From Xestospongia bergquistia (Eukaryota; Porifera; Demospongiae; Haplosclerida; Petrosiidae): a stretch of DNA of 64,000 nt. Positions within the stretch are counted from its first letter, which is position 1. Each line of letters starts with the position of its first letter. Position numbers and translations under genes: made by a program. Under the pieces are notes generated by a model that was not told where the DNA came from, made no database searches, and worked only from the letters and a program-made list of their open reading frames with translations. The DNA lies in contig OZ014412.1 in the NCBI GenBank assembly GCA_963965975.1, positions 684,501 to 748,500 of the forward strand, given 5' to 3'. Of this stretch, positions 1,989 through 64,000 are shown in pieces.

Positions 1989-4809
1989 ATGAAGTACTTG
2001 TTGTCTTTTACATTGTATCATCAAAATGACATTTTAACAATCCATATTTGTACACAGATTTAATTTGATTATAGTAATCATAATTTTCCTACTTTTGAGA
2101 TATGTTACAAGTCAGGATGCTAGTAAGACAATGATACTATCCTATAGTATTTTCATTAACATGTCTCCTCTCTTAGTTTTACTAGTTCATCCATTACCTG
2201 TGAATACTACTGTAAACTCAGGACAAATTAACTTCACTTGTATAGCTAGAGCTGAACTTATTCTCTTTCATGTCAACAATACACCAGCTGATGATGCTAA
2301 TATTGCAAGTAAAGGATTTCATGAAGAAAATACAGTAACTGTCAACAATACAAGAAGTAAAGCTTTATTAGTTGATCCAAGAGAAGAAAACAATAATACT
2401 AATATTTCTTGTGTTGCCATTAATATATCACCATCATCTGATGATATTAGTAACAGGGTATTATTATTAATCCAAGGTAAACAACATTGTCAATATGTTT
2501 TATTTTATTATCTCGTTATAGGTTTATTAGAGGGTGTTAGAGATCTAACTGTTAATGTTACTAGTACTAATAGAGTAATATTATCTTGGTCTGCTCCATA
2601 TACTCTTGATAATACATATATTAATGGCTACAATATTACTATTACTAACACACTAACAAATAAAATAGAGACATATTTCACAGAGTCCCTACAATTATCA
2701 TATCAAAGTGGATCTAATGAAACAAATCCTTGTGCTGAAATAAAAGTAGATGTATTTGCTATTAATACAGCTGGTAATGGTATCATATCTAATGTGTCAT
2801 TTTATTTCCCAAAAGGTATGTTCTTAATTATTTATTATGATATATTATTAATAGTAAACAAAGTATCTATACCTTTATTAAATGAACTTCATTTTCACCT
2901 TCTATTACAGTACCTCAAAACAGTTCACTGATATCAGTGACTTTTATTCCAGTAGTATCAGGAAATATGATCCATATTATTATATCAGTTAATGTAAGAT
3001 ATACATAAATTAAGTATATGTTTTTATATTTGAAAAATGTACATAATATGAAAAATGTACATAATATACTCATTTCTATTCATACATGATATAATAGTTG
3101 ACATGCAGTTAAATTAATATTAACAGCTTGTATTAATAGTTAATAGTTAACATAAGATGCATATATACTGATATATTTTGTATCAGTATGTGTAGGTATT
3201 TTAAAAGTTTACTCACATTACTTTTATAATAATTTTAATAATATGTACTTATTGTATAATATTATTTTATTAGGTAACTCATCTTTGTCCTGGAGAATAC
3301 CCTACTAATGCTATAGTAGATATAAAGAATTCTACTACTGGTAAAGTGATATATACTATAATGAGTAATATATTAACTAGTGGACCATCTATTAATATAA
3401 CTAACTCTATTATATTAAGTCCTGATATGACATATATTGGTGAAGTTACTCTTAGTAATATTGATGGAACCTTTAATACAATCACTGATGTTAACTTTAG
3501 TAAGTACAATAAAATAGTATTGTTATTATTATTATTATCTATTATAGCTACTCATGGTATACAGAATGTGATAGTTAATATTAATCTTGGTTCTATATGT
3601 ATTATATGTAACTTTATTAATGGAGCTACAGAGTTAGGATGTCAAGTTAATATAATACAGAACAACAGTAACATACTATATTCAGTGAAGTTCTTAAGAA
3701 GTCCTATCACATCTAGTACATCTAGTGGATGTGTAGACATTGTTACAGGATTATATGATCTCTATGTCTATGATATTGAAAGTGATAATTCATCAGATAT
3801 TGTCATTGTACATAAAAAAGAGAATATATTAATAATAGAGCCATCGATTAGACAAATAATTACTCCTGCTACTACAATATATATATCATCTAATGATACT
3901 GTTGATGGTAAGATAGACACATGTATTGTATTATGGTAAATTAAATGATAATCATTACATGTTTGAAGTCTTAATCACAACATTATAACTGCTAATATAG
4001 TCTTTATTTTAACACTTGAAGAAAGACTTGAATTGTTTAGTATTGAAGAACCAATATCTGTATATCAACATAACTAATAGAATATTTACTTGTTAATAAT
4101 ATTGTGTTGGCAGTTTATGACATAATCCTATACAGATACCATGACAACACCAAGTAATGCTATGAATACAACATTATCAACTACATCATTAATATGTAAG
4201 TACATAGTTTAATGAATATTATAATTATTTATAATATAATAGGGTATTATGTTGTTGGTGGAGCTATCATCTTGATTGGTGTATTACTACTGTGTTGTTG
4301 TGTACAATGTTGTATAAAGGGTGAGTTATGTTATATTATGTAACATTGGATTAAAACTGTTTGTAGAAAGGGAGTTGTTATTACATGCACTGTGTTCTTA
4401 TGAACTATGTGAACTATCTCATCAATACTTTATGGAGCATAGTGAGTTAATTTAGTTATATAACATTGTATTAAAACTGTTCATAGAAAACAATGAAAAT
4501 GATGATGATAGTATATTAAGAGCATATGATAATAATATATCAGTAAGTTATTATATGATATGTTATTAATATTATTGTTATTATTAATCTTATAGACTCT
4601 CTATACTCCATCAATGGAGAGTTCTGTGAGTATTGAAATAGAAGAGAGTGCATTTTCTTTTGAAGTAATAATAATATTAAGAGATTGCTTATAATATTGT
4701 TTTATTGTGTAGTAAAAAGACAGTTGTACAGACATCCAATAATACAATAGGTCTCATTATGAATGATCCTCAGTTACCAAGAGATTATAATGCTACTTCA
4801 TATGTATAG
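1989..4809 (+). CDS. Gene A: Ig/FN3 single-pass receptor
   Basis: Predicted surface receptor. Exons: start uncertain (possibly 1989-2016 spliced to 2058-2122), Ig 2177-2476, FN3 2522-2815, split FN3-like 2911-2993 plus 3274-3499, four-cysteine domain 3548-3907, Thr/Ser stalk 4136-4195, TM with a Cys-rich end 4243-4320, then tail exons 4367-4441, 4487-4542, 4596-4625 (or to 4667) and 4720-4809. Phases agree across all joins (1-1, with phase 0 inside the split domain). The second half of the split domain starts with the family hallmark HLCPGEYPT; the four-Cys domain has CIIC..GC..C and ends in LYVYD. The tail ends in TSYV, a possible class I PDZ ligand. The first in-frame stretch (leader-like IIIFLLLRYVTSQ) has no ATG of its own, so the start is the weakest part. 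Ligand and function are unknown. Confidence 0.72.
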
Positions 4810-5480
4810 TTAGTGACTGTAACTGTGTTTATTTGTCTGCTGAAATAATTTATTTTAAGAAAATTTAGTTTTGTGTTTTGAATTCGAAGATGTTATTATG
4901 AATAATTCATAAGCAGAATCCTGCTTGGTTACTCAGTTCAGCAAGAGATGTTCTTTTTATAGCTACAGTTTTCGTTCTACTGGTTTCTGGAGGTATATAT
5001 CTATAGTGTAAATGCTATACATGTTCTGGTAAGTTCTACAAAGAAACGTAAGATATGTCTTGAAATGCTTGGACTATATACATGTATATATTATATGAGC
5101 AGTGGCCATAATAGTTAACTTTATATAGAATTATTGATTTATATAGGTTTGCAATTGCAATATTTTATGATAAAAGTGCAAGGCTTACTTCTCTAGCATG
5201 CTCAATGTCACTGAGATGGTATAGCCAGACCTTGCAAGAAAGGAAAGGACTGTTAAAAGATTCTGTGGGAAAAGAAAAAAGAATAGTAATTGTTGTATAC
5301 TTAGCCAAGATCAATGTGGATAACACAACAACAGAACACATTCAGGACAAGAAAAAAACATGTGCTCGGGTGTGTCCTTATCGCCCCCATACAATAATAA
5401 TAACTAACATTATTAAATTAATATACCACATCTCTCCTCTCTTAAACAATACAAATAATTAAGAGAAATGCAACAATTAG
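4810..5480. other. Intergenic, nothing recognised
   Basis: Between the stop of gene A and the retroelement remnant I see only short unsupported open frames and no family exon or RNA gene. Confidence 0.4.
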
Positions 5481-6540
5481 AAATGTCAAAAAGTACCTGT
5501 CTGGAGGTCATTGAATTCGTTGTGGGTAACGATGGCTGTTAACAATTGGAGCTTCAACAACTTCTTCAGAGTTATGCTGTGGTAAGAGATTATTAGAATA
5601 ATAGTCAGTATCAACATTGGTAGTAGTACTATCAAATCTTAAGTTAGAAACCGAAAGTCTAATTTGGTCAATGTATCTTCTCCATAATTATCCATTATCC
5701 ATTTTAATGAGATACGATAAGGGACCAGATCTCTTTTGAACCATCCATAGGGGTCCACTTCTGTAATTCCTGACTAGTACTTTACTTCCAACATCAATTT
5801 GCCTTTCTCTCTTAGATGAATTGTGGTCCTTTTCGCTGTGCTTGCTTAGCAAACACACAAGCTTCAATGTTAGGTTTCAAAAGACTTATCCTAGTTTGAA
5901 AGTTACGTTTCAAAAACAGTTCACCAGGAGTTACACCAGTATAGTGGTATGTGGTGTTGATCTATAACATTAGGGAAATTGGATAAACGATCTTCAGCTA
6001 CTAAAGAGAGTATCCCATTTTTGGGACTGAATATGGAGGTTAGTGGCGTGTGATCAGTTATAATTGTAAAATGCTGTCCATATAAGAACTTGTGAAAATT
6101 TTTGATACCAAAAATAAGGGACAAAGCTTCCTTATCTAGTTGGGATTAGAATGAAGTTCTAATTTAGCTTTAAATGTATTGATAGTTCCTAATTCATATT
6201 TAAAAATATCTGAATATTGATCAAGGAGGGGTTGTAGCAATGCCTGACTGCTGACTGTAGTTGATGTAAAAATTGTCTTCCAATCAGTACTCAAGACCAA
6301 TTAAATTAGGTCCATCACTTTAATGACTTAAAGTGTGAGAGACTTGTTTTGACCATTATGTTGAACATCACCATTGAACAGACCTAATAAGGTCATCTTT
6401 TCCTGAGTATATGTTTTAAGAATAGCTGAAAAGTCAGAGAGTGGTATGTTCAGAAAAAGACGACTCTTTGTACTTTCTGAAATTATTGAAACAGACGCCC
6501 CTGTGTCAATTTCCATACACAACTCTGTGCTGTTAACTAA
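5480..6540 (-). mobile_element. Ty3/gypsy retrotransposon pol remnant
   Basis: Minus-strand relic of an LTR-retrotransposon polyprotein. In order: an aspartic protease piece near 6525-6330 with the active-site motif DTGASVSIIS; the start of the reverse transcriptase region near 6245-6135 (QYSDIFKYELGTI); an RNase H piece near 6125-5920 (FTIITDHTPLTSIF); and an integrase C-terminal tail near 5545-5500 with an RYPQR..PPDR-like end. Most of the reverse transcriptase and integrase core is missing, frames are broken by stops, and no LTRs are visible, so it cannot be autonomous. Its protease end lies exactly where the homologous M1 locus continues into the last M exon, so the insertion or rearrangement truncated the M-type gene next door. 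Confidence 0.82.
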
Positions 6541-6710
6541 TAAGGGAAATTATGATAAGGAACAAAGCAAAGTTGTGACATGTATGCACTCCCTCAAAGA
6601 GTACATATAATAAATAAACATTTATTATATCATGTATATATATTAAACATGCATCGCTTTATTATATGTAAACACCATATGCTATTATCTATGAAGGAGT
6701 GAACACTTAC

Positions 6711-8005
6711 CATAACTTTCATAGTGTTGATTTGTGTCATTTAATACTTTTATACATTGCAATTATAACAGGTATTACAATTATAATCTATGAATACTCA
6801 GTACTAATATATGATAAAATTAATAAATCAATTATTAATAATAATTATTACATCAGATGAGACTAATTGCCACGACAGAAAATACTATAATATTCAAAAC
6901 TAAAAAAAAATAGAAGTTATTATTAACAAACATGATAAATCTATTACAATTACAAGTAAACAAACAACTTACTAGTAGAAGTTAATGTAATCACAAAACT
7001 AGTTAGTTTAGGAGTTGTTGTTGTTGTTATAGGAGTTACTAACACTGGAACAGTGCAGCGATATTAGTATGATGAGGTGAAAATCATTTCTGTATCAACT
7101 TACTTGTACATGTATAAGTTGGTAATATATCAGTTATTATTATTATATCTCTTGAATTACCATTAGGGTAAGGGGTAACATTTATAACTGAATATGAAAG
7201 AAATACAGTACTATGCATATTGACATAATGTGTTTACCTCTAGCAATATAGTACATGACATTATTACTATCTCCTATACCAGCTCCATTAATACCAGAGA
7301 CATATACAGTAGTTACAACACAGTAGTCACTAGTCAAGATATACTTAGTAGTATTAACTGTGTCTATAAGTGTTCCTTGATCATCATTGATGTTATATCC
7401 AGTGATAGGTACATTATTCAATGTATATGGTGCAGACCACATCAGTAACACACTAGATCCATTGAAAATTGTAGCAGTTAGATCTTTAACAGGAGCTAGT
7501 AAACCTACATCAATATATCATAATAATATGACATCTATAAAATTAACTCACCTTGTATTCTTAATACAGCAATGTCACTGTCTACTATATCTGAGACATT
7601 ATAATCAACAGCTCTACATGATATATTAGTATTATTGTTATCTTCTAATGCTTCAGCTGTTAATACTCTTCTCTTTATACCACCACTAAGTGTATCTTGT
7701 GATTGTTCAGTAAATCCTTTATTTATAGATTTATTCTCCACTGCTGGCATATTATTAACTACTCTAAAGGTAATAATATCAGCAACAGCTTCACAAGTAA
7801 AATTAACTGTTGAGTTGAGAGTAGTATTGACTGACTGAGGATGAACTGTAATATCTGTAAAATACGACAACTGTTATAATCATGATAAGTTGTATTACAG
7901 TTATATCCACTATATGTCATGATACTTACTTGCAGCACAGACAGGAGCAGGTACAACAGACAACATCTTTGTCATCACTATCAGTACAAATTGTAGGGTA
8001 GCCAT
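6711..8005 (-). pseudogene. M-type Ig/FN3 receptor, 3' end lost
   Basis: Minus-strand member of the M subfamily. Exons: signal 8005-7930 (starts MATLQFVLIVM), Ig 7854-7552, FN3 7504-7238, short membrane-proximal exon 7187-7104 (starts VINVTPYPNGNS), Thr-rich stalk 7044-6973, TM-like exon 6787-6711. The first five exons are in frame and phase 1-1. The TM exon is 77 nt instead of the 78 nt in M1 and its frame hits a stop, and the final exon found in M1 is replaced by retroelement sequence from 6540 on. It may still give a secreted or differently terminated protein, but the membrane anchor looks damaged. Confidence 0.68.
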
Positions 8006-8049
8006 TGTCTATCCAGGGGATTATTACTGCTTGGCCGCTTGCCATGCAG

Positions 8050-12258: not shown

Positions 12259-13853
12259 TTAATTTGATTCAAACGGAATAATGTCATCACCTTCACGTAT
12301 AGGAGAGAGTTCTTTAGGGTGATCACCTGTATCACTGTTTGTACGACAGAAACTTGGCTGATGTTGACGTTCAGAAAAGGTTTGGTGTGAGTATGACTAA
12401 TTATCAGATAAATACAACAACAACAATTAGAATATAATTATTTAACTAACTGTTTGTTTATCACTATCTGGTTGTGGTTCAAGATATGAAAAGTCTTGAA
12501 CAGATTCAATATTGATTGTATCATCTTCTTTATTAACTACTGTAGTATCTGGTAATTTCTTTTTGTTAGTTGTAGGAAGTACATGAGGAGATGCTTGAGT
12601 CAGATTAGAGGGAGGTTCCTATTTAATGCAATGTAAATACCTTCAAAGTTCAGATAATCATTTACCTGAAGGTCATCAGTACATTCATGAATCTCAGCAG
12701 GTACAATAACACCATTCTATAATGAGTGTTTTGTATCTATAAATTAAAGGAAACGGCTTCTTACCAGTTGGTTCAATGAATGTGTATCATTGTCTTTATT
12801 ATCACTATAAATTAATAATATATTTAATTAACAATTACAATTATCATTATGTCATACTTAAAGGGAGTCTCCATTTCAATAACAGTAGAAAGTTTTCGTT
12901 GATGAAGAATGGGGTCCCTTACTTCTAATGAAGTTATGTCTGAACTGTCAGAAGATCTGTAGAAATATATTAATGTAATTAATCATATTATCATAATATA
13001 TGACCTTGTATTAGTATTAGTGTCAGTATTAAGAAGATGTTTTGTTTCAATTGTCTCAGCTGTGCTACCATATCTAATGCTAGCAGCTACAATAGGTACT
13101 GATCTGCCAAGTTGTAAAGAAGTTAGAGTATTGACCATTTCACCAGCGTTCTCTTGATAATCATCTCCAGTAGCTATAAAAATTTATTTATAAATCAAAA
13201 AATAAATATGATTGTTTACCTTCTGTTGAGAATATTATTTTCTTATGGAGTGTTTCTTTCTTATTATGTTGTTGTTTCCATTTCCTGATGACACATACTG
13301 ATATTATTGATATTATTGCTGCTACAAATAGAACTATAAGACTAGCCACTACACTTCCTATTATGGTGGACAAATTGTCTGTACAGAATATGGAAAAAAT
13401 AAATATGATCTATCAAAATTTTACCTTTAGTCTGTTTAGTCGAATTTTCTTCAATGAAAAAAATATTATGTTATTATAATTAAATTAATCTTTACCTGGT
13501 TCAGTTCCATTGATATAGATTGAATACTGACATATCTCATATTCCATAGAGAGAGGCAAAGAAGTATAACATATGTCATAGTAACCTGAAGGGAACCATG
13601 TAAAACAGCCAAATGCAGATGACTTATTTTCTCTGTAGAGTAGGATATAAATCCTTTCTGTTGTATTGACATTTAGAAAACTAATATTACAGCCAGTTGC
13701 ATGATCATTGTGCGTCAATACATCATTCTCAAAATGACATTGGAAACATGGTCCAGTTGTAATGTTTCCTTCAATATAATGTGCATCTTGAATGTCATTA
13801 GTGTCTATAAAAGAGCACTATACTAATATTATGAAGTGTGACTATGAAGTCAT

Positions 13854-13898
<45 letters not shown>

Positions 13899-15103
13899 TG
13901 TGATTGAACTGTGAACTCATGTAATAACAATTTCATAGAGTATAGGATGATTGTTATTGATAAACATATGAATTTACTTACTAAACTCTAATGATGGTTG
14001 CTTGGTCTGACCACCTTTATTTTTTAGCCATATATCTACCTGTACATATTGATTTCCTAAGAACTCTAGTTGATGGTTAGGATTGGATTTAATAATACCA
14101 GTACATCCTACTTTTATAACTGGTATATTATTATATGATACACTAGGGTGATCTTTATAATGAGCTATAATAGTTGAATGAGTACTTTGTCTACCAGGAC
14201 AGTGACATTGCTCCTATATTAATAGATCATAGAAATGCATTAACATGGAATTATTACCTTATATTTCATTGTAACAGTAGTACTACCATTATAATGTTTG
14301 TACAGTTTAGTAGTAAAATTTGAGAGTGGTGGTTCTATAACACAAATTGGTTAGAGGACATAAGTCAGCATTATACTTACTATGAGGAAAAACAATACTT
14401 GACAAATGACTACTCCTTGATTCTAAAGTATCAACTGTTCCTGCAATTGTCAAGTTCCCCCGAGTACATGGATCTTGTGATAACTTTATAGTCCACGAGT
14501 TAGTAGTAATATTGGTCACATTAGCAATGGGAATAGAGTCATTAAGATATCTCAGTAATAGACTAAAGAGAACCACTATACCCTCTAGAACTGGTGGGAT
14601 ATCCCAAATAAATGTTATATGTGTTAAGTTGACATGTGAAGTAATGTTAGTCACTGGGTCGAGATGATCTAGTTAAAAACAATGAAATATTGTAATGATT
14701 AAGTTACTTACCTTGGACAAGTATTATTGCTGTATTGGAATGAATGGTAAGATTGGGTCGTTTAATACCTGGCACACAATAGTACTGTTTTCTAATATTG
14801 TCAGTGTACAGATCATTTCACAGAAAGTTGAATTGCATTTTTTCTGACAGGAGTTTGTTATATCCATACCATTCTTGTATACATCTACATGGCCACAGCT
14901 CAAAGCCACACAATTAAATTTATATGAACTATCCACTGTACCATTATAAGATGAAGGACTCTTGTCAAACACTGGCACAGCAATACAAAAGTCGTGTTAT
15001 TAGTTTACAACGACTTACCACAAGAGTCAGAGATTAAGAGGAAAATGGCTAGACAGACTAAATTCACTCTCCAGAAAATCGCTTGTATATGTGATAAGTA
15101 CAT
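12259..15103 (-). CDS. Gene R1: Ig/FN3 receptor with long tail
   Basis: Predicted surface receptor. Exons (minus): signal 15103-15019, Ig 14971-14712, FN3 14668-14381, split FN3-like 14334-14258 plus 14210-13982 (second half starts QCHCPG), four-Cys domain 13804-13496 (CFQC...GC, then C and GYYDI), short stalk 13448-13425, TM 13378-13220, tail 13173-13005, 12956-12858, 12804-12765, 12716-12666, 12618-12451, 12396-12259. Intron phases fit at every join except inside the Ig exon. There the first part (to about 14830) and the last part (YYC, then RPNLTIHSNTA) are in different frames, so the exon length implies a one-base gain or two-base loss: either a real disabling frameshift or an assembly error. 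The tail of about 230 residues is much longer than in P or M genes and has DDYQEN, IRYGST and FSYLEP tyrosines. Confidence 0.7.
13859..13896. repeat. (TA)n microsatellite
   Basis: About 19 uninterrupted AT/TA dinucleotides inside the R1 intron between the split-domain exon and the four-Cys exon. Simple repeat, no coding role. Confidence 0.9.
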
Positions 15104-19872: not shown

Positions 19873-19873
19873 T

Positions 19874-44508: not shown

Positions 44509-46845
44509 TCAGTCAGTAGGTTGTAAACGTTTACGAATAGCAGTGTTTGACTAGAAAGAAGATAAAGAACATAGACACAGTTATTACCACATGTTATACC
44601 TCAATATTAGTAAGAGATGATGTTATGTCATGATCCTCAGCAGTTTGACCAATAGCAACATCACTAGGTCCTGAATCTGTTGATGGTTTTGGGTCATCAT
44701 AAGGATAGCCCTCGTCAATTGCTTCATATTCCTTAATATATGATAAATGTATTTATTTAATATTACATATTTCTTACAGATTGTTCAGAAGTAGGAACAG
44801 TTGTATCATTTCCAGAAGAATATACACTAGTTATTAAATATATCACAATTTATAACAATAAACACAATGTATTATATCATATACTAACCTCTGTTGACGA
44901 CTTATGGAACTTTCAGTGATAGCTCCCCTATATGTAATGAGATAATATTTAATAATCAATGGTAATGAAACAGTCTCAGTCATAGACTACACTGTAAAAA
45001 TTAAATTCTTATTTTAACAATTACTTTGTAGTTTACATCAGTGGGTTACTATGGAATATAGAATTTATGTGAATTACTCATTGTGTAATTTGTTGGCATA
45101 TAAAAGTACAACACATACCGAGAAATTATACAATGAGTAAATCACAAAAGTTCTATATATCATAGTAACCCACTGATGTAAACTTATGACTTATGGTACT
45201 TTCAGTGATAGCTCCCCTATATGTAATGAGATAATATTTAATAATCAATGGTAATGAAACAGTCTCAGTCATAGACTACATTGTAAAAATTAAATTCTTA
45301 TTTTAACAATTACTTTGAAGTTTACATCAGTGGGTTACTATGGAATATAGAATTTATGTGAATTACTCATTGTGTAATTTGTTGGCATATAAAAGTACAA
45401 CACATCGAGAAATTATACAATGAGTAAATCACAAAAGTTCTATATATCATAGTAACCCACTGATGTAAACTACAAAGTAATTGTTAAAATAACAATTTAA
45501 TTTTTACAGTGTAGCCAGACCCCGTCATTCCATATATCATAGGAAAAAATGGGAGTTTGGCTAGCCAGACTAATATCTTCTAACATTTCATTTGAGTTAG
45601 TCATGTCTTCAGAACTTGGTTCACTAAGGAAGAAATTAAAGTATCACACTAGTGCTAATAGATAAGTTAAGTTGTTAGCACTGCCATCTTTCAAGACATC
45701 TTTTCCATCATTTACTACTATGTTACTATAAAAATAGCGAATAATAAATTTAACAAAAAAGTACTGACTCAATATCAGCTGGTAGGTCATTGTTTAGTTT
45801 ATCTGATAATTCAGGAGACTAATTTCAAAGGACAAGTTTATTAATATTTTATTTACCTTCTGGTTTGTCCTTTCCAATCCTATTAGTGATATATTGAATA
45901 ATTTGGAATTTATATAAGATTATGACAATTATTAAAATCATACCAAAACCCAAAGCAGTAACAATTATACCTATAATTAGTTTCCATGGAATTTTGCTAT
46001 TTTTTTCAGAGTTGACTGTGTCTTTATAGTAAAACAATAATAAATATTTCCTTGTCATTGCTTTTTGTAACTCACATGTTGGGAACATACTAGATGATGG
46101 TGTCATATTGACTCTTTCTTTCCTTTTAAAAGCCCAATGTTCTCCATTAATGTCATCTTTTACATAAATATCTACAACACTAGTACTTCCTTCTACTGAA
46201 AACTTCCAACATTGCCTTTCTGATTTAGTTTTAATTCTCTTTAAAGCCACTCCTCTTGTTATTCCAACTAATGTTACTCCATCAACCTCCACATAACAAC
46301 CTTCAGTAGTAGCATAATTAACAAAATAACACTGTATACAAATCTGATCCCCAATATCTACTGTAATGTTTGAAACATCAACTGTACCTAAATAGAATTC
46401 ATAAGATATCATGTTAAATATAAACTTACTGATACTAACTGTTTCAAGAGAAACATTGCCTGCTTCATTCATTAAGACAATACTCACGTTACAAGTATCT
46501 TTTCTATTTAGCACTATACCAGTACCTCCTCCTATAACAGAAATGCCCTCAGGACCATTTACAATAGATATGTTTGGGAAAATTTCTCTCTCGTGATATT
46601 CATAATTTACAGTAATATTAGCTGTTATTGCTCTCCCTCCAGGACAATGATTATTAGTACACTAATAACAACAAGATTATACATTATATAATAAGGTACT
46701 ACTAACCTTGTAAATTATATTCAATACAGCTGTCATTTCTGTAACTCTTATTATCTTAGATTGTTATATACTACAATTATTGGGCACTAAAATAACTAAT
46801 AAGTAATCAATTTAAATATAAAAACATACCTTGTGGATAATACAC
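44509..46845 (-). pseudogene. Q2: truncated Q gene with MITE insertion
   Basis: Lacks signal, Ig and most of the FN3 exon: homology starts at about 46845, only a few codons before the FN3 donor. Remaining exons: 46786-46707 (contains a TAA in frame), 46661-46430, four-Cys 46387-46076, TM 46021-45857, tail 45802-45769, 45725 to about 45666 (donor mutated), 45623-44889 (split by the MITE and frameshifted), 44826-44778, 44731-44600, 44550-44509. The four-Cys and TM exons are still open. Not expected to give a receptor. Confidence 0.78.
44990..45511. mobile_element. TA-flanked MITE, partly duplicated
   Basis: An element with long terminal inverted repeats beginning CACTGTAAAAATT and ending AATTTTTACAGTG sits between TA dinucleotides (44988-44989 and 45512-45513) inside a Q2 tail exon. 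Q1, Q3 and Q4 show the uninterrupted site, so this is an insertion with a TA target duplication, as in Tc1/mariner-type MITEs. The complete unit is about 233 bp (45279-45511). A 289-bp tandem duplication has added a second partial copy (44990 to about 45187) together with part of the neighbouring exon. No transposase is encoded. Confidence 0.82.
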
Positions 46846-47942: not shown

Positions 47943-49117
47943 TCATAGTGTTGATTTGTGTCTTGTAATAATTTTACACACTGCAGTTATAACAGGTATT
48001 ACAATTATAATATCTATGAATACTCAGTACTATTATATGATTAAATTAATAAATCAATTATTAATTATAATTGTTACATCAGATGAGACCCATTGCCAGG
48101 ACAGAAAATACTATAATATTCAAAACTAAAAAAAATAATAGAAGTAATTATTAATAGTGAATAACAAAACATGATAAATCTATTACAATTACAAGTAAAC
48201 AAACAACTTACTAGCAGAAGTTAATGTAATCACAAAACTAGTTGGTGCAGGAGTTGTTGTTGTTGTTGTTGTTGTAGGAGTTGCTATCATGGGAACAGTA
48301 CAGTGATATTAATATGATACAACACCCATTTCATTTATATTGACATAATGTGTTTACCTTTAGAAATATAGAATGTGATATTATTATTATCTCCTATACC
48401 AGCTCCATTAATACCAGAGACATATACAATAGTTACAACACGGTAGTCACCAGTCAGTATGTACTCAGTTGTATTAACTGTGTCTATAAGTGTTCCTTGA
48501 TCATCATTGATGTTATATCCAGTGATAGGTACATTATCCAATGTATATGGTGCAGACCACATCAGTAACACACTAGATCCATTGAGAACTGTAGCAGTTA
48601 GATCTTTAACAGGAGCTAGTAAACCTACATCAATATATCATAATAATATGACATCTATAAAATTAACTCACCTTGTATTCTTAATACAGCAATGTCACTG
48701 TCTACTATATCTGAGACATTATAATTAATAGCTCTACATGATATATTAGTGTTGTTGCTATCTTTTAATGCTTTAACTGTTAACACTCTTCTCTTTATAC
48801 CACCACTAAGAGTATCTTGTGGTTGTTGAGTAATATTCATACCATTTATATGTTCACTTGCTGGTGTACCATTAACTCTAAAGCTTATATCATCAGCAAC
48901 AGCTTCACAAGTAAAACTAACTGTTGAGTTTAAAGTAGTATTGACTGACTGAGGATGAACTGTAATATCTGTAAAATATGACAACTATTATAATCATGAT
49001 CAGTTGCATTACAGTTATATCCATTATGGCATGATACTTACTAACTGCACAGTCAAGAGCAGGCACAAAAGACAACATCATTGTCATCACTATCAGTACA
49101 AATTGTAGGGTAGCCAT
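47943..49117 (-). CDS. Gene M3: M-type Ig/FN3 receptor without the short module
   Basis: Exons (minus): signal 49117-49042, Ig 48968-48672, FN3 48624-48358, Thr-rich stalk 48280-48212, TM-like from 48013 to a stop at 47945-47943. The short membrane-proximal exon of other M genes is absent, so FN3 joins the stalk directly; the stalk uses a shifted acceptor. An extra base in the TM exon changes the tail to KIITRHKSTL, removing the YxxM motif. The frame is otherwise open. The protein would be the shortest of the M group, with little or no signalling tail. Confidence 0.6.
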
Positions 49118-49560: not shown

Positions 49561-51330
49561 TCAGTCAGTAGGTTGTAAACGTTTACGAACAGCAGTGTTT
49601 GACTAAAAAGAAGATAAAGAACATAGACACAGTTATTACCACATGTTATACCTCAATATTAGTAAGAGATGATGTTATGTCATGATCCTCAGCAGTTTGA
49701 CCAATAGCAACATCACTAGGTCCTGAATCTGTTGATGGTTTTGGGTCATCATAAGGATAGCCCTCGTCAATTGCTTCATATTCCTTAATATATGATAAAT
49801 GTATTTATTTAATATTACATATTTCTTACAGATTGTTCAGAAGTAGGAACAGTTGTATCATTTCCAGAAGAATATACACTAGTTATTAAATATATCACAA
49901 TTTATAACAATAAACACAATGTATTATATCATATACTAACCTCTGTTGACGACTTATGGAACTTTCAGTGATAGCTCCCCTATATGTAATGAGATAATAT
50001 TTAATAACCAATGGTAATGAAACAGTCTCAGTCATAGACTGGCCAGACCCCGTCTTTCCATATATCATAGGAGAAATGGGAGTTTGGCTAGCCAGACTAA
50101 TATCTTCTAACATTTCATTTGAGTCTGTCATGTCTTCAGAACTTGGTTCACTAAGGAAAAAATTAAAGTATCACACTAATGTTAATAGATACCTTAAGAT
50201 GTTAGCACTACCTTCTTTCAAGACATCATTTTCTACTATGTTACTATAAAAATAGTGAATAATAACTTTAACAAAAAGTACTGACTCATTTTCAGCTGGT
50301 AGGTCATTGTTTAGTTTATCTGATAATTCAGGAGACTAATTTCAAAGGACAAGTTTATTAATATTTTATTTACCTTCTTGTTTGTCCTTTCCAATCCTAT
50401 TAGTGATATATTGAATAATTTGGAATTTATATAAAATTATGACAATTATTAAAATCATACCAAAAACCAAAGCAGTAACAATTATACCTATAATTAGTTT
50501 CCATGGAATTTTGCTATTTTTTTCAGAGTTGACCGTGTCTTTACAGTAAAACATAATAAATATTTTCTTGTCATTGCTTTTTGTAACTCACATGTTGGGA
50601 ACATACTAGATGATGGTGTCATATTGACTCTTTCTTTCCTTTTAAAAGCCCAATGTTCTCCATTAATGTCATCTTTTACATAAATATCTACAACACTAGT
50701 ACTTCCTTCTACTGAAAATTTCCAACATTGTCTCTCTGATATAGTTTTAATTCTTTTTAAAGTCACTCCTCTTGTTATTCCAACTAATGTTACTCCATCA
50801 ACCTCCACATAACAACCTTCAGTAGTAGCATAATTAACAAAATAACACTGTATACAAATCTGATCCCCAATATCTATTGTAATGTTTGTAACATCAAATG
50901 TACCTAAATAGAATTCATAAGATATCATGTTAAATATAAACTTACTGATACTAACTGTTTCAAGAGAAACATTGCCTGCTTCATTCATTAAGACAATACT
51001 CACGTTACAAGTATCTTTTCTATTTAGCACTATACCAGTACCTCCAGTACAATAGATATGTTTGGGAAAATTTCTCTCTCACGATATTCATAATTTATAG
51101 TAATATTAGCTGCTATTGCTCTCCCTCCAGGACAATGATTATTAGTACACTAATAAAAACAAGATTATACATTATATAATAAGGTACTAACCTTGTAAGT
51201 TATATTCAATACAGCTGTCATTTCTGTAACTCTTATTATCTTAGATTGTTATATACTACAGTTATTGGGCACTAAAATAACTAATAAGTAATCAATTTAA
51301 ATATAAAAACATACCTTGTGGATAATACAC
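49561..51330 (-). pseudogene. Q3: truncated Q gene
   Basis: Truncated at the same point as Q2 (homology starts at about 51330). Exons: 51271-51192 (in-frame TAA, shared with Q2), 51149-50946 (204 nt instead of 232, a 28-bp deletion that shifts frame), four-Cys 50903-50592, TM 50538-50374, tail 50319-50286, 50243-50193, 50150-49941 (210 nt, fully open), 49878-49830, 49783-49652, 49602-49561. Q3 is the only copy whose large tail exon is uninterrupted (CAG where Q1 and Q4 have TAG), so it shows the ancestral tail best although its ectodomain is lost. Confidence 0.78.
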
Positions 51331-51829: not shown

Positions 51830-52222
51830 GTAAACAAACAACTAACTAGCAGAAGTTAATGTAATCACAAAACTAGTTGGTGCAGGAGTTGCTGTTGTTG
51901 TTGTTGTTGTAGGAGTTGCTATCATGGGAACAGTACAGTGATATTAATATGATACAACACCCATTTCATTTATATTGACATAATGTGTTTACCTTTAGAA
52001 ATATAGAATGTGATATTATTACTATCTCCTATACCAGCTCCATTAATACCAGAGACATATACAGTAGTTACAACACGGTAGTCACCAGTCAGTATGTACT
52101 CAGTTGTATTAACTGTGTCTATAAGTGTTCCTTGATCATCATTGATGTTATATCCAGTGATAGGTACATTATCCAATGTATATGGTGCAGACCACATCAG
52201 TAACACACTAGATCCATTGAGA
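51830..52222 (-). pseudogene. M fragment: stalk and partial FN3 exon
   Basis: Stalk exon near 51915-51845 and FN3 exon from its donor side at 51993 to about 52222, where the sequence switches abruptly to a + strand P3-type FN3 exon. The fragment is almost identical to M3 (including absence of the short module). It has no start and is a duplication remnant. Confidence 0.7.
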
Positions 52223-53728
52223 AGATGATGAATTATTTCGTCATCGATATACATATACCATATATGGTGTAAATGAACTGGGTGAAGGAGAACATAAGAA
52301 TAGTACCTTCTCTTTTCAAAGAGGTTAGTTAAAATAACTAATATGTGTGTTTATTTTATCATGTCGTTTTAGCTCCAAGATCTACCAAAGAAAATATTAC
52401 ATTTACTATTCTGTCCTGTATAAATAATGAAGTCAATTTGATGTTTAATATACCAGTGAGTCTATCCAATAGTGGTTACTATATGATTATCATAGTTACT
52501 GTAGATTATTCTGGAATGTTCATCTGAAGCTCCAGAGAATGTTACAGTCACTGTAAAATGCGGTGATGTAGTTATATTTAATAAAATATATCTGATAGAA
52601 TATTCAAGTCAACCTATGTACATAACAGATAATCTGTTAGCTCCTCGACATCAAGTCTGTATTCTCTTTATTGCATTAAAGTAATAATGCTGGACACACT
52701 GATCCATTGATAGATACTTTAAGTAAGAGATAGTGATATTATGTAATATATTGATATTATTATGTCATATAGGTACATATGATGTTATAAATGCTACTGC
52801 TTACCCTAATCGTAATTCTATATGTGTGGAGTGTGTATTTTCATCTGCTCCATCTGCTAAGTCATGTTATGTTAGTGTGATTGGAGTGACTTCAATGAAC
52901 AAAGTATTTGTTAAAAACAGTTCAAATGATCTTACTGTACAAGGTTGTATTGATAATCTCCCAGCTGGTAATTATACAGTCTATATATATGATGTGGAGA
53001 ATGATATACCACTAACATCAATATTACCAGCAATAATATTAAGAGATATTACAATAAATGATACATTGCCAATTATTACTACAAGTGAGTTCTAATACTA
53101 ATTATAATAGTTTGTTAACTTACAATATTTATTTGGAAATAATCACAATCACATTATTAACTACTGATGGATAACAATGACAACAAAATCTCAAACTGTT
53201 TCTAGTAACATAATATTATATTGTTATACTTATGTTTGTCCTCCATCTTCCTTTAGTTATAATTACTCCTACTGTGATTATTTACACTATACCAAGTTAT
53301 TCTACAGTAGTCATACCATCAATTAATACAATAACAGTGCCTGGATCTCAAAGTTATCTTAGTATGATTATTTAATAATTATTATAATTAAATATTATTA
53401 CATAATTCTTCTCTCTCTAGTTATAATTGTTACCACTGTGATCGGTATGTCAATAATTTTAATAGCACTAATTATTTTCAGTGTTTGTGTGGGTGTTTAT
53501 TATAAAAAGAAGAGACAAAGTATGTCTATATATGTATTCATATAATATAATATAATTAATATTCATATAGAGTCTAATACTAATGATGTTATAATTGCTC
53601 AATATAATCCAGCATACGAAGATCTCAGACAATATCAAACACCAATAGTCTTGAATCAGAACACAGCTTATGGTCTTGTAATTAGAAATAACAATAGCAC
53701 AATACCTGATTATCTGACTATCATTTAA
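52223..53728 (+). pseudogene. P3-like 3' fragment (copy 3)
   Basis: Starts in the middle of the extra FN3 exon (to 52323), then 52373-52455, 52505-52722 (218 nt, one extra base, frameshift), four-Cys 52773-53084, stalk 53257-53352, TM 53421-53519, tail 53571-53728 with stop. Apart from the single frameshift and the missing 5' half, exons and splice sites are intact, including the NPAYED and TAYGLV tail motifs. It could act as a sequence donor for P3 by gene conversion but cannot itself encode a receptor. Confidence 0.75.
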
Positions 53729-57290: not shown

Positions 57291-57303
57291 AGTGAACATT
57301 TGC

Positions 57304-59457
57304 CATAACATTCATAGTGTTGATTTGTGTCTTGTAATAATTTACACATTGCAGTTATGAAAGGTATTATGATTATAATATCTATGAATACTCAGTACTA
57401 ATACTGTATATGATAAAATTAATAAATCAATTATTAATGATAATTGTTACATCAGATGAGACCCATTGCCAGGACAGAAAATACTATAATATTCAAAACT
57501 AAAAAAATAATATAAGTAATTATTAATAGTGAATAACAGAACATGATAAATCTATTACAATTACAAGTAAACAAACAACTTACTAGTAGAAGTTAATGTA
57601 ATCACAAAACTAGTTGGTGTAGGAGTTGTTGTTGTTGTTGTAGGAGTTACTAATGTATGAACAGTGCAGTGATAATAATATGATGAAGTAAAAATCATTT
57701 CTGTATCAACTTACTTGTACATGTATAAGTTGGTAATATATCAGTTATTATTATTATATCTCTATTGTCTTATTATAGGACTACAATTGTCTATAGTGAA
57801 GTGTTTTTTCAAATTCCAAAGTGAATGAAGTGTTGGGCGTGGTCAATCGATACGAAGTTGTCTTATAATAATTATTATAATTAAATACTTTTATATAATT
57901 CTTCTCTCTCTAGTTATAATTGTTACCCCTGTGATCAGTATCTTAATAATTTTAATGATACTTATTATTTTCAGTGTTTGTGTAGTTGCTTATTATAAAA
58001 AGAAGAGACAAAGTATGTCTATATAATGTATTCATATAATATAATATAATTAATTTTTATATAGAGTCTAATACTAACGATGTTATAATTGCTTAAGCTA
58101 ATGCATCACACGAAGATCTCAGACAATGATAATTGTTAGATCAGATGAGACCCATTGCCAGGACAGATAATACTATAATATTCAAAACTAAAAAAAATAA
58201 TAGAAGTAATTATTAATAGTGAATAACAAAACATGATAAATCTATTACAATTACAAGTAAACAAACAACTTACTAGAGCAAGTTAATGTAATCACAAAAC
58301 TAGTTGGTGTAGGAGTTGTTGTTGTTGTTGTTGTAGGAGTTACTAATGTAGGAACAGTGCAGTGATATTAGTATATGATAAATCTATTACAATTACAAGT
58401 AAACAAACAACTAACTGGTAGAAGTTAATGTGACCACAAAACTAGTTGGTTTAGGAGTTGTTGCTGTCATTGTTGGTGTTGCAGGAGTAACTAACACTGG
58501 AATAGTGCAGCGATATTAGTATGATGAAGTGAAAATCATTTCTGTATTAACTTACTTGTACATGTATAAGTTGATAATATATCAGTTATTATTATTATAT
58601 CTCTTGAATTACCATTAGGGTAAGGAGTATCATTTATAACTGAAAATGAAAGAAATACAACATACATGCACCATGTATATTGACATAATATGCTTACCTA
58701 TAGCAATATAGAATGTGATATTATTACTATCTCCTATACCAGCTCCATTAATACCAGAGACATATACAGTAGTTACAACACAGTAGTCACCAGTCAGTAT
58801 GTACTCAGTAGTATTAACTGTGTCTATAAGTGTTCCTTGATCATCATAGATGTTATATCCAGTGATAGGTACATTATCCAATGTATATGGTGCAGACCAC
58901 ATCAGTAACACACTAGATCCATTGAAAACTGTAGCAGTTAGATCTTTAACGGGAGCTAGTAAACCTACATCAATATATCATAATAATATGACATCTATAA
59001 CATGAGCTCACCTTGTATTCTTAATACAGCAATGTCACTACTGGTTATATTCATTGAGCCATTAACAGCTCTACATGATATATTAGTATTATTATTATAT
59101 TCTAATGCTCTAGCAATCAATACTCTTCTTATCGTGTCATTACTGAGAGTGTCTATTGGTTGTTGCATAAATCCTTTATTTATAACGTCTATGTCATCTG
59201 CTGGTGTATCATTAACTCTAAAGCTTATATAACTAGCAACAGCTTCACAGGTAAAATTAACTGTTGAGTTGAGAGTAGTATTGACTGACTGAGGATGAAC
59301 TGTAATATCTGTAAAATATGGCAACTATTACAATCATGATCAGTTGTATTACAGTTATATCTATTATTTCATGATACTTACTAACTGCACAGTTAAGAGC
59401 AGGCACAACAGACAACATCATTGTCATCACTATAAGTACAAATTTTAGGGTAGCCAT
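57304..59457 (-). CDS. Gene M4: M-type Ig/FN3 receptor
   Basis: Exons (minus): signal 59457-59382, Ig 59308-59012, FN3 58964-58698, short membrane-proximal 58639-58556, Thr-rich stalk 58496-58416, with a further possible stalk exon near 58345-58275 and a TM-like exon at about 57381-57304. The first five exons are open and phase 1-1. The 3' end is uncertain: the donor after the TM exon reads GC instead of GT, and M fragments plus a TM module lie between stalk and TM exons. The Ig exon differs most from M1-M3 around SYISF and the NGSMNITSS loop. Lies immediately 3' of Q4, as each M follows a Q. Confidence 0.58.
57540..57775 (-). pseudogene. M stalk/short-module fragment
   Basis: Contains a Thr-rich stalk exon near 57650-57585 and the 3' part of a short-module exon up to about 57765, where it is cut and joined to M 5' flank sequence preceding TM module 5. 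Confidence 0.5.
57775..58128 (+). pseudogene. Isolated TM/tail module 5
   Basis: TM exon 57914-58012 (open) and a tail exon from 58065 that meets a stop at 58094-58096, before the AYEDP-like motif. The most truncated of the five modules. Confidence 0.55.
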
Positions 59458-59501
59458 TGTCTATCCAGGGGATTACCACTGCCTGGCCGCTTGCCACGCA
59501 G

Positions 59502-59510
59502 TCTTATATA
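59502..59510 (-). promoter_or_regulatory. TATA-like element of M4
   Basis: TATATAAGA on the minus strand, 44 nt upstream of the M4 ATG, in the conserved M leader. Confidence 0.45.
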
Positions 59511-59914: not shown

Positions 59915-62900
59915 TCAGTCAGTAGGTTGTAAACGTTTACGAACAGCAGTGTTTGACTAGAAAGAAGATAAAGAACATAAACATTGTTATTACCATATAA
60001 TATACCTCAATATTAGTAAGAGATGATGTTACATCATAATCCTCAGCAGTTTGACCAACAGCAACATCACTAGGTCCTGAATCTGTTGATGGTTTTGGGT
60101 CATCATAAGGATATCCCTCATCCATTGCCTCATATTCCTTAATATATGATAAATATATTTATTTAATATTACATATTTCTTACAGATTGTTCAGAAGTAG
60201 GTACAGTTGTATCATTTCCAGAAGAATATACACTGGTTATTAAATATATCATAATTTATAACAATACATACAATGTATTATATCATATACTGACCTCTGT
60301 TGACGACTTATGGTACTTTCAGTGATAGCTCCCCTATATGTAATGAGATAATATTTAATAGCCAATGGTAATGAAACAGTTTCAGTCATAGACTAGCCAG
60401 ACCCTGTCTTTCCATATAACATAGGAGAAATGGGAGTTTGGCTAGCCAGACAAATATCTTCTAACATTTCATTTGAGTCAGTCATGTCTTCAGAACTTGG
60501 TTCACTAAGGAAGAAATTAAAGTATCACACTAATGTTAATAAATACCTTAAGATGTTAGCACTACCATCTTTCAAGACATCATTTTCTACTATGTTACTA
60601 TAAAAATAGTGAATAATAACTTTAACAAAAAGTACTGACTCAATTTCAGCTGGTAGGTCATTGTTTAGTTTATCTGATAATTCAGGAGACTAATTTCAAA
60701 GGACAAGTTTATTAATATTTTATTTACCTTCTGGTTTGTCCTTTCCAATCCTATTAGTGATATATTGAATAATTTGGAATTTATATAAAATTATGACAAT
60801 TATTAAAATTATACCAAAACCCAATGCAGTAACAATTATACCTATAATTAGTTTCCATGGAATTTTGCTATTTCTTTCAGAGTTGACTGTGTCTTTATAG
60901 TAAAACAATAATAAATATTTTCTTGTCATTGCCTTTTGTAACTCACATGTTGGGAACATACTAGATGATGGTGTCATATTGACTCTTTCTTTCCTTTTAA
61001 AAGCCCAATGTTCTCCATTAATGTCATCTTTTACATAAATATCTACAACACTAGTACTTCCTTCTACTGAAAACTTCCAACATTGCCTTTCTGATGTAGT
61101 TTTAATTCTCTTTAAAGTCACTCCTCTTGTTATTCCAACTAATGTCACTCCATCAACCTCCACATAACAACCTTCAGTAGTAGCATAATTAACAAAATAA
61201 CATTGTATACAAAACTGATTCCCAATATCTACTGTAATGTTTGAAACATCAAATGTACCTAAATAGAATTCATAAGATATCATGTTAAATATAAACTTAC
61301 TTATACTAACTGTCTCAAGAGAAACATTGCCTGCTTCATTCATTAAGACAATACTCACGTTACAGGTATCTTTTCTATTTAGCACTATACCAGTACCTCC
61401 TCCTATAACAGAAATGCCCTCAGGATCATTTACAATAGATATGTTCGGGAAAATTTCTCTCTCACAATATTCATAATTTACAGTAATATTAGCTGTTATT
61501 GCTCTCCCTCCAGGACAATGATTATTAGCACACTAATAACAATGACATTATACATTATATAATAAGGTACTAACCTTGTAAGTTATATTCAATACAGCTG
61601 TCATTTCTGTTACTCTTATTATCTTAGATTGTAATATACTACAATTATTGGGCACTAAAATAACTAGTGAGTAACCAATTAAAATATAAAAACATACCTT
61701 GTGGATAATACACTATTGTCTTTGACTTATCACTAGAAATGATACCACTATGTGCAGTAATACTCACATTTATTGGTAAACAGGAATCAATTGGTACTGA
61801 ATTACCAATGACAATTTTATTAGTATTAACTGTTTTTGCGAGTGTCATATTTCCAATTTCCACAGTATAGTTGACAACAATTCCATTTAAAAGATTAGAT
61901 GGAGGACTCCAAGATAAAGTCTTGTCTTTGTTCAATGAAATGTTCTTCACAGGATATAGATCACCTAATGTTACAATGTATATTAATTTTGAACTCTATC
62001 AACATATATGATGTAATAACTGTACATGTGACAAAAAAATTTGGCTTTTTTCCAAATTTAAATTTCAAAGTGGCTGTTGACACTGACTAAACTTTAATAT
62101 AAGAATATATACTAAAGGCAGTTTCCAACAAGTACTTTATTAAATATAATAATAAATAGTGATAAGGACATTGGTTTATTGAGGAATAGTGTCTGCTGAT
62201 TGGCTTAGATATAGGAGATGGATCATGGTACAATCTAGTGTTGTTCCAGTTCTTAGGTACTGGAACTAAAAGTAATTTTAGTACCATCATTTTAATTTAA
62301 GTTCCAGTTCTAGAACTAAAACTAGTACAAAAACTAAAATAATTTTTATTTCAGTACTTGAATTAGAACTGGAACTAAAAATATTTTTTAGGTATTACTG
62401 GAACTAAAACTGGAACTAAAATAGTGAAACAAAAAGTTCCAGAACTGGAAGTAGAACTATAAAAAAAAACAATTTGGTTCTAAAACTAGAACTGGAACTA
62501 TAAATGATAAACTTAAGGTTCCAGAACTGGAACTTTAATTTGACATGAGAACCGGAACAACTCTAGTACAATCCACATTTGTCTATTTTTTAAATGTTTT
62601 ATCTCAAGTATATCTTATAAGTTAAGTCTATAGTTTAGAGTTTAAGAGTTTGTGCAAGTGTGTAGTCAATATTGACACTGATCATTATCAATATTGACTT
62701 TATAACTCGTATTGCTACTGTTCTATCACTGTCAATATCATTGACCTTTGCTATAATATAGTAATATGATAAACATTAATATCTTACTTTGTACTAAAAT
62801 GATAGCTTTATCTGATGTTTTCTGTTGGTAGTTATTTCCATAAATAGCCTTACACCAAACAATGATGTCTTCAGTTATAGTAAAATGACAATGTCTTTTA

Positions 62901-63165
62901 AAATTAGATGATGTAGTACAAGATTCTGATATATCAGATGAGGCACTTCCTGAAGACTGCTTTAATACATCCAATTCTACACAATCATTTCCCTTCATTT
63001 TACACACCACAGATAAATTTATGTTGTAAGTAACATTACGTGAGACTGGGAACATTGTGATAACTGTATCATAAGTCAGACATAATAGACTCACGTATTA
63101 TTAGTTCACTTACTACAACTACTAGACACTTGAATAACATAAAACAAATATAATGAGTTCTTCAT
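59915..63165 (-). CDS. Gene Q4: Ig/FN3 receptor with acidic tail
   Basis: Exons (minus): signal 63165-63114, Ig 63063-62788, FN3 61964-61698, split FN3-like 61654-61575 plus 61532-61301, four-Cys 61258-60947, TM 60892-60728, tail 60673-60640, 60597-60547, 60504-60295, 60232-60184, 60137-60006, 59956-59915. All phases agree and the ectodomain, four-Cys domain and TM are open, making this the best-preserved Q gene. One in-frame TAG (60395-60393) lies in the 210-nt tail exon where Q3 has CAG, so the tail may end there or the exon may be skipped. Downstream exons remain open and conserved (YPYDDP, RKRLQPTD). The Ig-FN3 intron is enlarged to 823 nt by an insertion with a minisatellite. Head-to-head with the next gene. 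Confidence 0.74.
62100..62660. repeat. Insertion with GGAACTAAAACT-type minisatellite in a Q4 intron
   Basis: Q1 and Q4 introns align on both sides, but Q4 has about 0.5 kb extra here. From about 62245 to 62565 it consists of degenerate repeats of GGAACTAAAACT and its complement (GTTCCAGTTCTAGAACT), i.e. both orientations. No coding potential. Possibly a transposon-borne satellite. Confidence 0.7.
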
Positions 63166-63263
63166 TTTCTGGGCACAGACAAGGGGGCGTGTCAAACCAA
63201 ATTAAAATGCTTTACATCCGTAAGTTATAAGTAGTGTTACTCCTCCACGACCAGAGCAATGTC
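63166..63263. promoter_or_regulatory. Short divergent promoter region
   Basis: Only 98 bp separate the Q4 ATG (63165, minus) from the next gene's ATG (63264, plus). The Q-type box GGTTTGACACGCCCCC lies at 63183-63199. Both genes belong to the same receptor family, so shared regulation is plausible. Confidence 0.45.
63183..63199 (-). promoter_or_regulatory. GC-rich TTTGACACGCCCCC box before Q4
   Basis: Same 17 bp as upstream of Q1 (38884-38900), 17 nt from the ATG. Conservation beyond the coding region is limited nearby, which favours function over mere duplication. Confidence 0.38.
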
Positions 63264-63449
63264 ATGGACTTTATTGTTTTTATCAGCTTCTGTACATTGT
63301 TAGGAGGACTAGCAGTAGGGAACCCAGGTAAGAGATGGATTAAGTAATTTGATTTTGAAAATAAACAGAAGATATTTTAGCTGTGCAATCATATATATAT
63401 ATACATATGTCTATATGTAATACACACACTAACACACACACGCGCGCAT

Positions 63450-63481
<32 letters not shown>

Positions 63482-64000
63482 TGATAGAGAGAAAGCAAAT
63501 AGTCATATTAAATGGTATTATTGGAAATGTGCAAAAAGTGTATCATTACATAGTTTGTTTATTTTGTTATGAAGTCTTTCTCTTCAAATACACATATATA
63601 TTATATTTGCTTTCATTTCAATGCCTAACTATCTAGTAGGTTATGTTGGCATTGATGTTGAGTTGACTATATATTGTCATAAGTAGTATATACCATATCA
63701 TTGTGTTTGTTGTATTTTTATTTATTAGTTTTTATTGAGAAGCCTGTCTCAGTCAATGCTAGTCTCAATTCTACAGCAACTTTCATCTGTAAATGTCGTT
63801 ATTGTGTCGGACAATTTTGGGAAGTAAATGGACTATCTGCTAACTTTGATGTAAATCAAAACAAAGGAGTTGATCCAGGAGGACCTTATTACTTATCAAA
63901 TGGAGTCAAGCTATACAATGTCTCAATGCCAGCTTCAATTCAATTAAATAACTCTACTATACAATGTATTATATATAATGAATCTTCTTTTAAAAATAGT
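63264..64000 (+). CDS. Gene S: Ig-type receptor, 5' part only
   Basis: Signal exon 63264-63327 (MDFIVFISFCTLLGG then AVGNP), 401-nt intron, then an Ig exon from 63729 that is open to the window edge. The join is phase 1 as in the rest of the family. The Ig begins VFIEKPVSVNASLNSTATF, matching the HPQSVNTTLNST pattern of P and M genes, and has a CKCRYC cluster and several N-glycosylation sites. The gene continues beyond 64000, so downstream domains cannot be seen. An upstream ATG at 63259 is in another frame and stops quickly. Confidence 0.7.
63396..63482. repeat. Simple repeats (TA)n and (CA)n/(CG)n in the gene S intron
   Basis: Several short TA runs, an ACACACACACGCGCGC tract near 63425-63447 and a longer TA run at about 63455-63482. 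Low-complexity intron sequence. Confidence 0.85.

Follow-up and report, generated by a model that had tools for sequence, protein, structure and literature searches.

The window analysed here, 64,000 nucleotides from the sponge Xestospongia bergquistia (positions 684,501 to 748,500 of contig OZ014412.1, hereafter C2), carries a dense family of membrane-protein genes that combine immunoglobulin (Ig) and fibronectin type III (FN3) domains. An initial annotation had recognised such a family, with members on either strand, over roughly 2.1-64 kb of the window, and 50 tblastn matches together with spliced models of the genes P1, P2 and Q1 bear it out. The receptor complex to which these genes belong is real, large and actively evolving. 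Its most divergent element is a V-like Ig exon that lies beside exons far more alike among copies, and recognition is the role that we infer as the best fit. Window coordinates are used for features of the window, and P1, P2, Q1 and N1 were spliced.

P2 (24951-26936, plus strand) is a complete receptor whose eight exons encode 536 residues and end in a stop codon. Spliced by hand, it reads in the order signal peptide, Ig-like domain, FN3 domain, an FN3-like unit split over two exons, a domain with four cysteines (four-Cys), stalk, transmembrane (TM) segment and a tail with the motifs YDVI, ISYEYV and YVNV. On the same strand, its diversified V-like Ig cassette occupies 25077-25370, the low-divergence intron 2 between Ig and FN3 25371-25417, the first FN3 exon (FN3-1), homogenised among copies, 25418-25693, and the four-Cys exon, which encodes a predicted FN3-like domain and stalk, 26164-26532. 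P1 (21935-23937, plus) is likewise a complete P-type receptor, with eight exons, 540 residues to a stop, and YDVI, ISYEDV and YVNF in its tail. Both stand as the gene-length members they had been taken for, but P3 and Q1, listed separately, are one gene, Q1 (27950-31399, plus), in which a P-like front is joined to a long Q-type back; its 12 exons and 721 modelled residues include an NPAY motif in the tail, and the stop is not reached at the modelled limit. All three genes show AG and GT at each internal splice junction. Ahead of P1, a 374-base stretch is exactly repeated in tandem (21484-22230) and brings with it a truncated duplicate of the P1 Ig exon (21690-21857, plus). This is the single Ig duplicate that the window shows, and an array of alternative Ig exons like that of Dscam was rejected.

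Similar fronts sit on at least three backs, which we term P, Q and N. The P back is short, with a TM segment and a tail bearing YDVI, ISYEDV-like and YVNV motifs; the Q back is longer, with a TM segment and an NPAY motif in the tail. The N back, modelled in N1 (34395-35705, minus, 278 residues), lacks a tail: signal peptide, Ig and FN3 are followed by a threonine-rich stalk and a hydrophobic C-terminal end, ILNIIVFSVLAMGLI, which, judged by eye, resembles a glycosylphosphatidylinositol (GPI) attachment signal. Among the P tail exons, Y[DN][VI]I is kept in all 14 listed, and YVN in each of the eight that reach that far. Immunoreceptor tyrosine-based inhibitory or activation motifs (ITIM/ITAM) in cytoplasmic tails follow the consensus [ILVS]xYxx[ILV], which fits the second tyrosine in eight of the 10 P tail matches that extend far enough, although a motif alone does not amount to function.

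The complex had been given the limits 2041-64000 and is indeed dense there, but it runs far beyond the window, which holds only part of a larger complex close to an end of C2 (16.13 Mb, in a genome of 146 Mb and 21 contigs). Searched against this genome, P2 matches at least 106 places at E ≤0.001, a lower bound, and every one lies on C2. At least 58 of them cover FN3-1, all on this single contig: 42 at 0.44-0.77 Mb, the main block of 0.33 Mb, nine at 1.87-1.93 Mb, five at 2.25-2.37 Mb and two at 10.74-10.77 Mb. A Q-type query (FN3 plus four-Cys) matches 150 places, of which the close ones track the blocks of P2; the sole close matches off C2 are three to the Q-type FN3 exon at C1:17.80-17.85 Mb. 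Most of the weak four-Cys-like matches (24-38% identity) lie at C2:2.8-4.3 Mb; C9 has three and C14 one. Given the Q-type matches on C1, C9 and C14, the wider family is not restricted to C2.

Further related or similar-looking sequences were noted in passing along C2. At 2.8-4.3 Mb, four-Cys-like exons of weak relationship form another array, and the one stretch of it that was read (L051) shows FN3-like and four-Cys-like open frames. Two family genes at 635.9 and 646.1 kb (L031 and L032), 10,215 bases apart, have identical match rows and stem either from a tandem duplication of very recent date or from duplication in the assembly. In both flanks of the main block (L040, 1081-9767; L042, 1342-9390), further Ig- or FN3-looking open frames were seen by eye, one with a VYSEI tyrosine motif.

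To compare the copies, 16 query pieces were matched by tblastn to 295.5 kb of DNA, giving 217 non-overlapping matches. Both exons are full-length and open in 39 of the 42 Ig-FN3 pairs found, so the family is neither chance nor debris. Removing the three other pairs, three A-type pairs and one identical duplicate left 35 genes. Across these, the median synonymous divergence (dS) is 0.405 in the Ig exon and 0.091 in FN3-1, and the median nonsynonymous divergence (dN) 0.269 and 0.060; the Ig exon is thus about four times as divergent at synonymous sites as the exon adjoining it. Later exons, measured on full copies more than 60% identical to the query, are lower still: 0.039 for the split FN3-like unit and 0.031 for the P four-Cys exon (14 copies each), and 0.048 for the Q-type FN3 exon (19 copies). 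The intron between Ig and FN3 goes with the latter. In the 28 of 35 genes where intron 2 is shorter than 70 bases, its mean difference is 0.091, compared with 0.299 at synonymous sites of the Ig exon and 0.084 at those of FN3, a contrast that was bootstrapped. The synonymous contrast across 35 genes and the low-divergence intron in 28 are new here.

A profile along 10 of the 13 P-type genes, with one duplicate and two genes with missing bases dropped, locates the change more closely. The 5' side of the Ig exon differs by 0.45-0.60, as if non-homologous; the Ig exon itself lies near 0.25, with its first 50 bases at 0.108; FN3 falls to 0.01-0.06, the third intron and its surroundings rise to 0.13-0.27, and the later exons are at 0.02-0.08. 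Distances between genes in Ig and in FN3 are hardly correlated (Spearman 0.15). The gene at 10.74 Mb has an FN3 about as near to those of the main block as theirs are to one another, and distant later exons. On the simplest reading of these comparisons, FN3 and, in most genes, intron 2 appear to share a recent ancestry beside older Ig lineages, and gene conversion would be the cause of the homogenisation.

We then asked which Ig codons change, using our own implementation of site models M1a and M2a on 34 rows, after merging identical ones, with twice the log-likelihood difference taken at two degrees of freedom. A class with omega 2.9-3.8 at 5-11% of Ig codons is preferred, the statistic being 65 with one tree, 62 with two and 23 with three; restricted to 23 main-block genes, it is 31.5 with two trees. 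The much higher likelihood with more trees points to recombination within the Ig exon. Three residues, R40, Q85 and Y88, exceed 0.9 in every one of the four Ig runs; two runs place N29 and E35 above this value, and a single run each does so for E27, Y53 and K60 (numbered as in P2, where K1 lies at window 25079). With the exception of Y53 and K60, these sites belong to predicted strand C, to the C-C' stretch or to FG-G, faces being assigned from the usual Ig topology and not from coordinates. Nine of the 15 most variable Ig columns lie in regions that hold 33% of the columns; the hypergeometric value of 0.017 is descriptive, as the regions were drawn post hoc.

Several of these results weigh against the explanation favoured below, a recognition complex with a diversified Ig cassette and homogenised constant parts. 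Ig and FN3-1 have median dN/dS values of 0.67 and 0.68; the Ig exon as a whole is thus without net positive selection, and its site signal drops from 65 to 23 once recombination is allowed for. FN3-1 gives a signal too: 18 under a single tree, 6.8 under two trees. In the Q-type four-Cys exon (eight copies, for example 30482-30787), unlike the other later exons, the median dN/dS reaches 1.30 and dN exceeds dS in 22 of 28 pairs. Together, the signals in this exon and in FN3-1 mean that Ig is not the sole part with fast amino-acid change. Y53 and K60, which lie off the favoured face, each pass in one run. As to intron 2, seven of the 35 genes have a longer one and were excluded from the intron test, and in the 10-gene profile the second-intron stretch stands at 0.255; intron 2 is long in three of those genes and of unlike sequence in one.

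The backs were compared with the trees of the fronts by labelling 34 of the 35 genes as P, Q or N, five N labels being assigned by hand. Back type changes nine times on the Ig tree and seven times on the FN3 tree, against means of 14 when labels are shuffled; backs therefore partly track ancestry and yet were exchanged. Orientation in the main block follows back type, with 13 of 13 listed P modules on the plus strand and 23 of 27 Q modules on the minus strand. In the two closely spaced head-to-head Q/P pairs, at 464/465 and 497/499 kb, the partner's Ig ranks first of 34 in closeness. The corresponding ranks are 1, 2, 11 and 17 in four further pairs that were tried, and 1 and 2 in two pairs of tandem P genes.

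Structure prediction gives the outer domain an Ig fold that matches antibody V domains, so that a V-set fold is predicted. What the annotation had called a four-Cys stalk is instead a predicted folded domain of seven strands (predicted local distance difference test score, pLDDT, 87); its matches are weak and mostly to FN3 or other beta-sandwich folds, and it is probably FN3-like. Foldseek matches include contactins, ectodomains of receptor-type protein tyrosine phosphatases (RPTP) and other adhesion molecules with an Ig-FN3 architecture. Sequence profiles recover less: Pfam places fn3 below threshold on P2, with no Ig match, and fn3 and Ig_3 both below threshold on N1, and a search of Protein Data Bank (PDB) sequences with the P2 Ig exon returned eight rows, one potassium channel throughout, with a best E of 0.17.

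The rest of the window holds members in various states. R1 (7239-7855), N2 (43286-43890), N3 (48359-48969) and N4 (58705-59309), all on the minus strand, have full and open N-type Ig and FN3-1 exons. Behind these two exons, tblastn matched no split-FN3 or four-Cys exon in R1 or in N1-N4, and with N1 also tail-less, the architecture once ascribed to every member does not extend to all of them. Among the four M-type genes proposed, all on the minus strand, M4 (60728-63093, part modelled) is open from Ig to TM; the other three are broken or truncated. M1 (37200-38788) retains Ig, FN3, split FN3-like and four-Cys exons, and its TM exon changes frame; M2 (46068-46661) consists of split FN3-like and four-Cys exons, and M3 (50584-51149) of the same exons, the split FN3-like part interrupted, with a TM exon that changes frame, no Ig or FN3 exon being matched in either. 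M-type exons occur in the window, once at C2:776 kb and as one weak match at 3.56 Mb, and M4 found nothing in the protein database at E 1e-3 among 4929 candidates. Short repeat units resembling gttccagttc were seen by eye in the intron that follows the Ig exon of M4 (about 62200-62600).

Gene A (2170-3907, plus), read exon by exon, comprises Ig (2170-2475), FN3 (2524-2814), split FN3-like (2911-2993 and 3274-3499) and four-Cys (3548-3907) exons, with TM and tail exons recognised by eye to about 4810. The divergent member S (13485-14996, minus), read in the same way, has Ig at 14727-14996, FN3 at 14379-14672 and a four-Cys-like open frame at 13485-13817. Matched by tblastn were also a Q-type four-Cys exon with no front matched (39930-40235, plus), a partial FN3-1 exon (51994-52239, minus) and a Q-type fragment in which a four-Cys exon accompanies the last part of an FN3 exon (52221-53080, plus). 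E (63728-63982, plus) is the Ig exon of a further member that runs past the window end. Pieces resembling a broken retroelement were seen by eye in frame translation on the minus strand at about 5000-6600, and Pfam gave no match at E 0.05 for four unexplained open frames.

The nearest relatives are uncharacterised proteins of Amphimedon queenslandica annotated as fibronectin type-III domain-containing, such as LOC109583147 and LOC109583152. P2 had 11 matches in the protein database (best E 1.6e-53 to 1.7e-37), and since 10 of them are named Amphimedon queenslandica, the earlier guess of a sponge-like animal is supported, the host probably being a demosponge related to Amphimedon. A profile of 16 sequences matched 489 proteins, and among the 120 listed those with an organism name are Amphimedon, the others being generic environmental records or nameless. 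Judged by alignment, these relatives are homologous to P2 over Ig and FN3, with 36-45% identity over the aligned part, and appear to keep the same order (Ig, FN3, split FN3-like, FN3, split FN3-like, TM, tail). FN3 is closer within each sponge species than between them, FN3-1 being 51.9% identical across the two. NEAY or NPAY occurs in six of 28 relatives examined, 27 of them named Amphimedon and several incomplete. Three Amphimedon relatives (P0003, P0024 and P0033) share a listed contig size of 169778, which suggests clustering there too. In another, P0012, possibly a fused gene model, residues 378-473 score 27.5 bits against Pfam SIT (SHP2-interacting adaptor), just under the cut-off of 27.6.

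The explanation that best accounts for the architecture, clustering, divergence contrast, site selection and back exchange computed here, and one that we rate at somewhat better than an even chance, is a complex of cell-surface recognition receptors built from a diversified V-like cassette and homogenised constant parts. For the ligand, the signalling and any role in telling self from non-self, we propose the following. FN3-type domains would carry the outer, V-like Ig domain of each receptor. The Ig exon would be the variable cassette, where copies differ most and a few sites appear selected for change. Gene conversion or unequal exchange would most simply account for the likeness of the following exons and, for most genes, of the short intron. 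The Ig face may bind a ligand that varies and is carried by microbes or other sponge cells; the tails of P and Q forms could recruit SH2 proteins and so inhibit or activate, and N forms may serve as tail-less ligands or decoys. If so, a sponge, far from the antigen receptors of vertebrates, has receptors divided into a diversified V-like part and constant parts that are homogenised. A bolder version sees a sponge histocompatibility complex, a V/C-like receptor system in which one exon would hold a selectable self/non-self specificity, exchange between genes would keep the constant domains of dozens of genes alike, and head-to-head pairs would give one specificity two signalling tails. This we regard as tentative and rather unlikely, because its support from head-to-head pairs rests on two clear cases.

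What such receptors would recognise is less settled. The Ig face might track microbial ligands, copy number and diversity reflecting an arms race or the choice of partners; innate or symbiont recognition in this sense is a serious rival, possible though well short of likely. The selected sites, the gain and loss of copies and the exchangeability of backs fit it as well as they fit allorecognition, and Ig and FN3 are among the domains combined with SRCR in sponges (in the passages available from PMC4772301), but no microbial-binding domain is present and nothing distinguishes it from allorecognition. Allorecognition proper, a special case of the favoured explanation that the annotation had put forward beside innate immunity, would make the Ig variants both self labels and detectors between touching sponges, with shared types fusing. 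The analogy with Hydractinia, whose complex likewise clusters V-like membrane genes of the Ig superfamily (IgSF) as these tyrosine-tailed genes do (excerpts of PMC11067881 and PMC11999971), makes it plausible, and the specificity of sponge grafts implies an underlying polymorphic genetic system (excerpts of PMC5450542, a graft transcriptome of A. queenslandica). However, the main text of PMC5450542, as available, has no occurrence of fibronectin, immunoglobulin or Ig-like, and the names of the related Amphimedon genes say nothing on grafting. The recognition-type complex of the annotation is supported by clustering, Ig-site selection, tyrosine-motif tails and back exchange; allorecognition specifically is a candidate form of it, which we hold to be somewhat improbable. 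The excerpts name no gene for graft specificity, for which this locus offers a chromosomal region, one exon and a few sites as candidates.

Other readings do without recognition or without homogenisation. The family might serve adhesion or tissue building, its diversity a by-product of duplication and relaxed constraint, as the Ig-FN3 architecture shared with contactins and RPTP ectodomains and the overall dN/dS of 0.67 would allow. The class of a few sites with omega near 3, the open exon pairs and the occurrence of one front in GPI-like and tail-bearing versions argue against this, and we consider it unlikely. Least probable in our view is that the Ig/FN3 contrast reflects nucleotide-level constraint on intron 2 and FN3, such as splicing signals, or a raised mutation rate in Ig. 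Intron 2 is very short (43-58 bases including junction bases) and near-identical in most genes. Yet genes at 753.0 kb and 10.77 Mb with an unlike intron 2 have FN3-1 exons 93% and 88% identical to that of P2, and the dN/dS of FN3-1 is not low, nor is its identity between the two sponges high; on these three grounds, a purely constraint-driven likeness of FN3 was rejected.

No title or abstract among the publications listed describes this receptor family, in a coverage that leaves out most subscription journals, so that a prior description is possible. The sponge aggregation factor is built of Calx-beta, VWA/VWD and related domains, and in five sequences of the window, whole P2 included, Pfam found no aggregation-factor domain with an E limit of 1. 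The adhesion molecules of Geodia are sponge surface proteins with Ig-like domains, for which we know of no FN3 scaffold or cluster. Vertebrate paired IgSF receptors (KIR, LILR, SIRP) combine similar outer domains with differing signalling backs and tyrosine-motif tails; the sponge family differs in its scaffold, which is FN3, and no vertebrate immune-receptor name appears among the sequence matches listed. A Geodia Ig-bearing adhesion molecule is mentioned in excerpts of PMC11999971, and we drew on available parts of two other surveys of sponge domains (PMC12723187 and PMC4302439). At the candidate fuhc locus of Botryllus, in an allorecognition setting, an Ig-domain membrane protein lies beside a secreted form (excerpts of PMC3691228); compared by description, two polymorphic genes stand there against a large FN3-bearing receptor family here. 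Closest in organisation is the allorecognition complex of Hydractinia, with clustered single-pass IgSF membrane genes in intact and broken copies (PMC11067881) and, in Alr, a V-set-like outer Ig domain (PMC11999971; see also PMC13119343, all three in part). No Hydractinia name occurs among the 11 matches of P2 or the 120 of 489 profile matches listed, Alr sequences not having been compared directly. The two systems share clustered IgSF membrane genes in one region and a V-like outer Ig domain, but here one such domain is followed by FN3-type domains, and a function established for Alr, where high allelic polymorphism decides fusion, is a candidate role for these receptors. The sponge complex therefore resembles that of Hydractinia, but by its domain make-up it is not a member of the Alr family.

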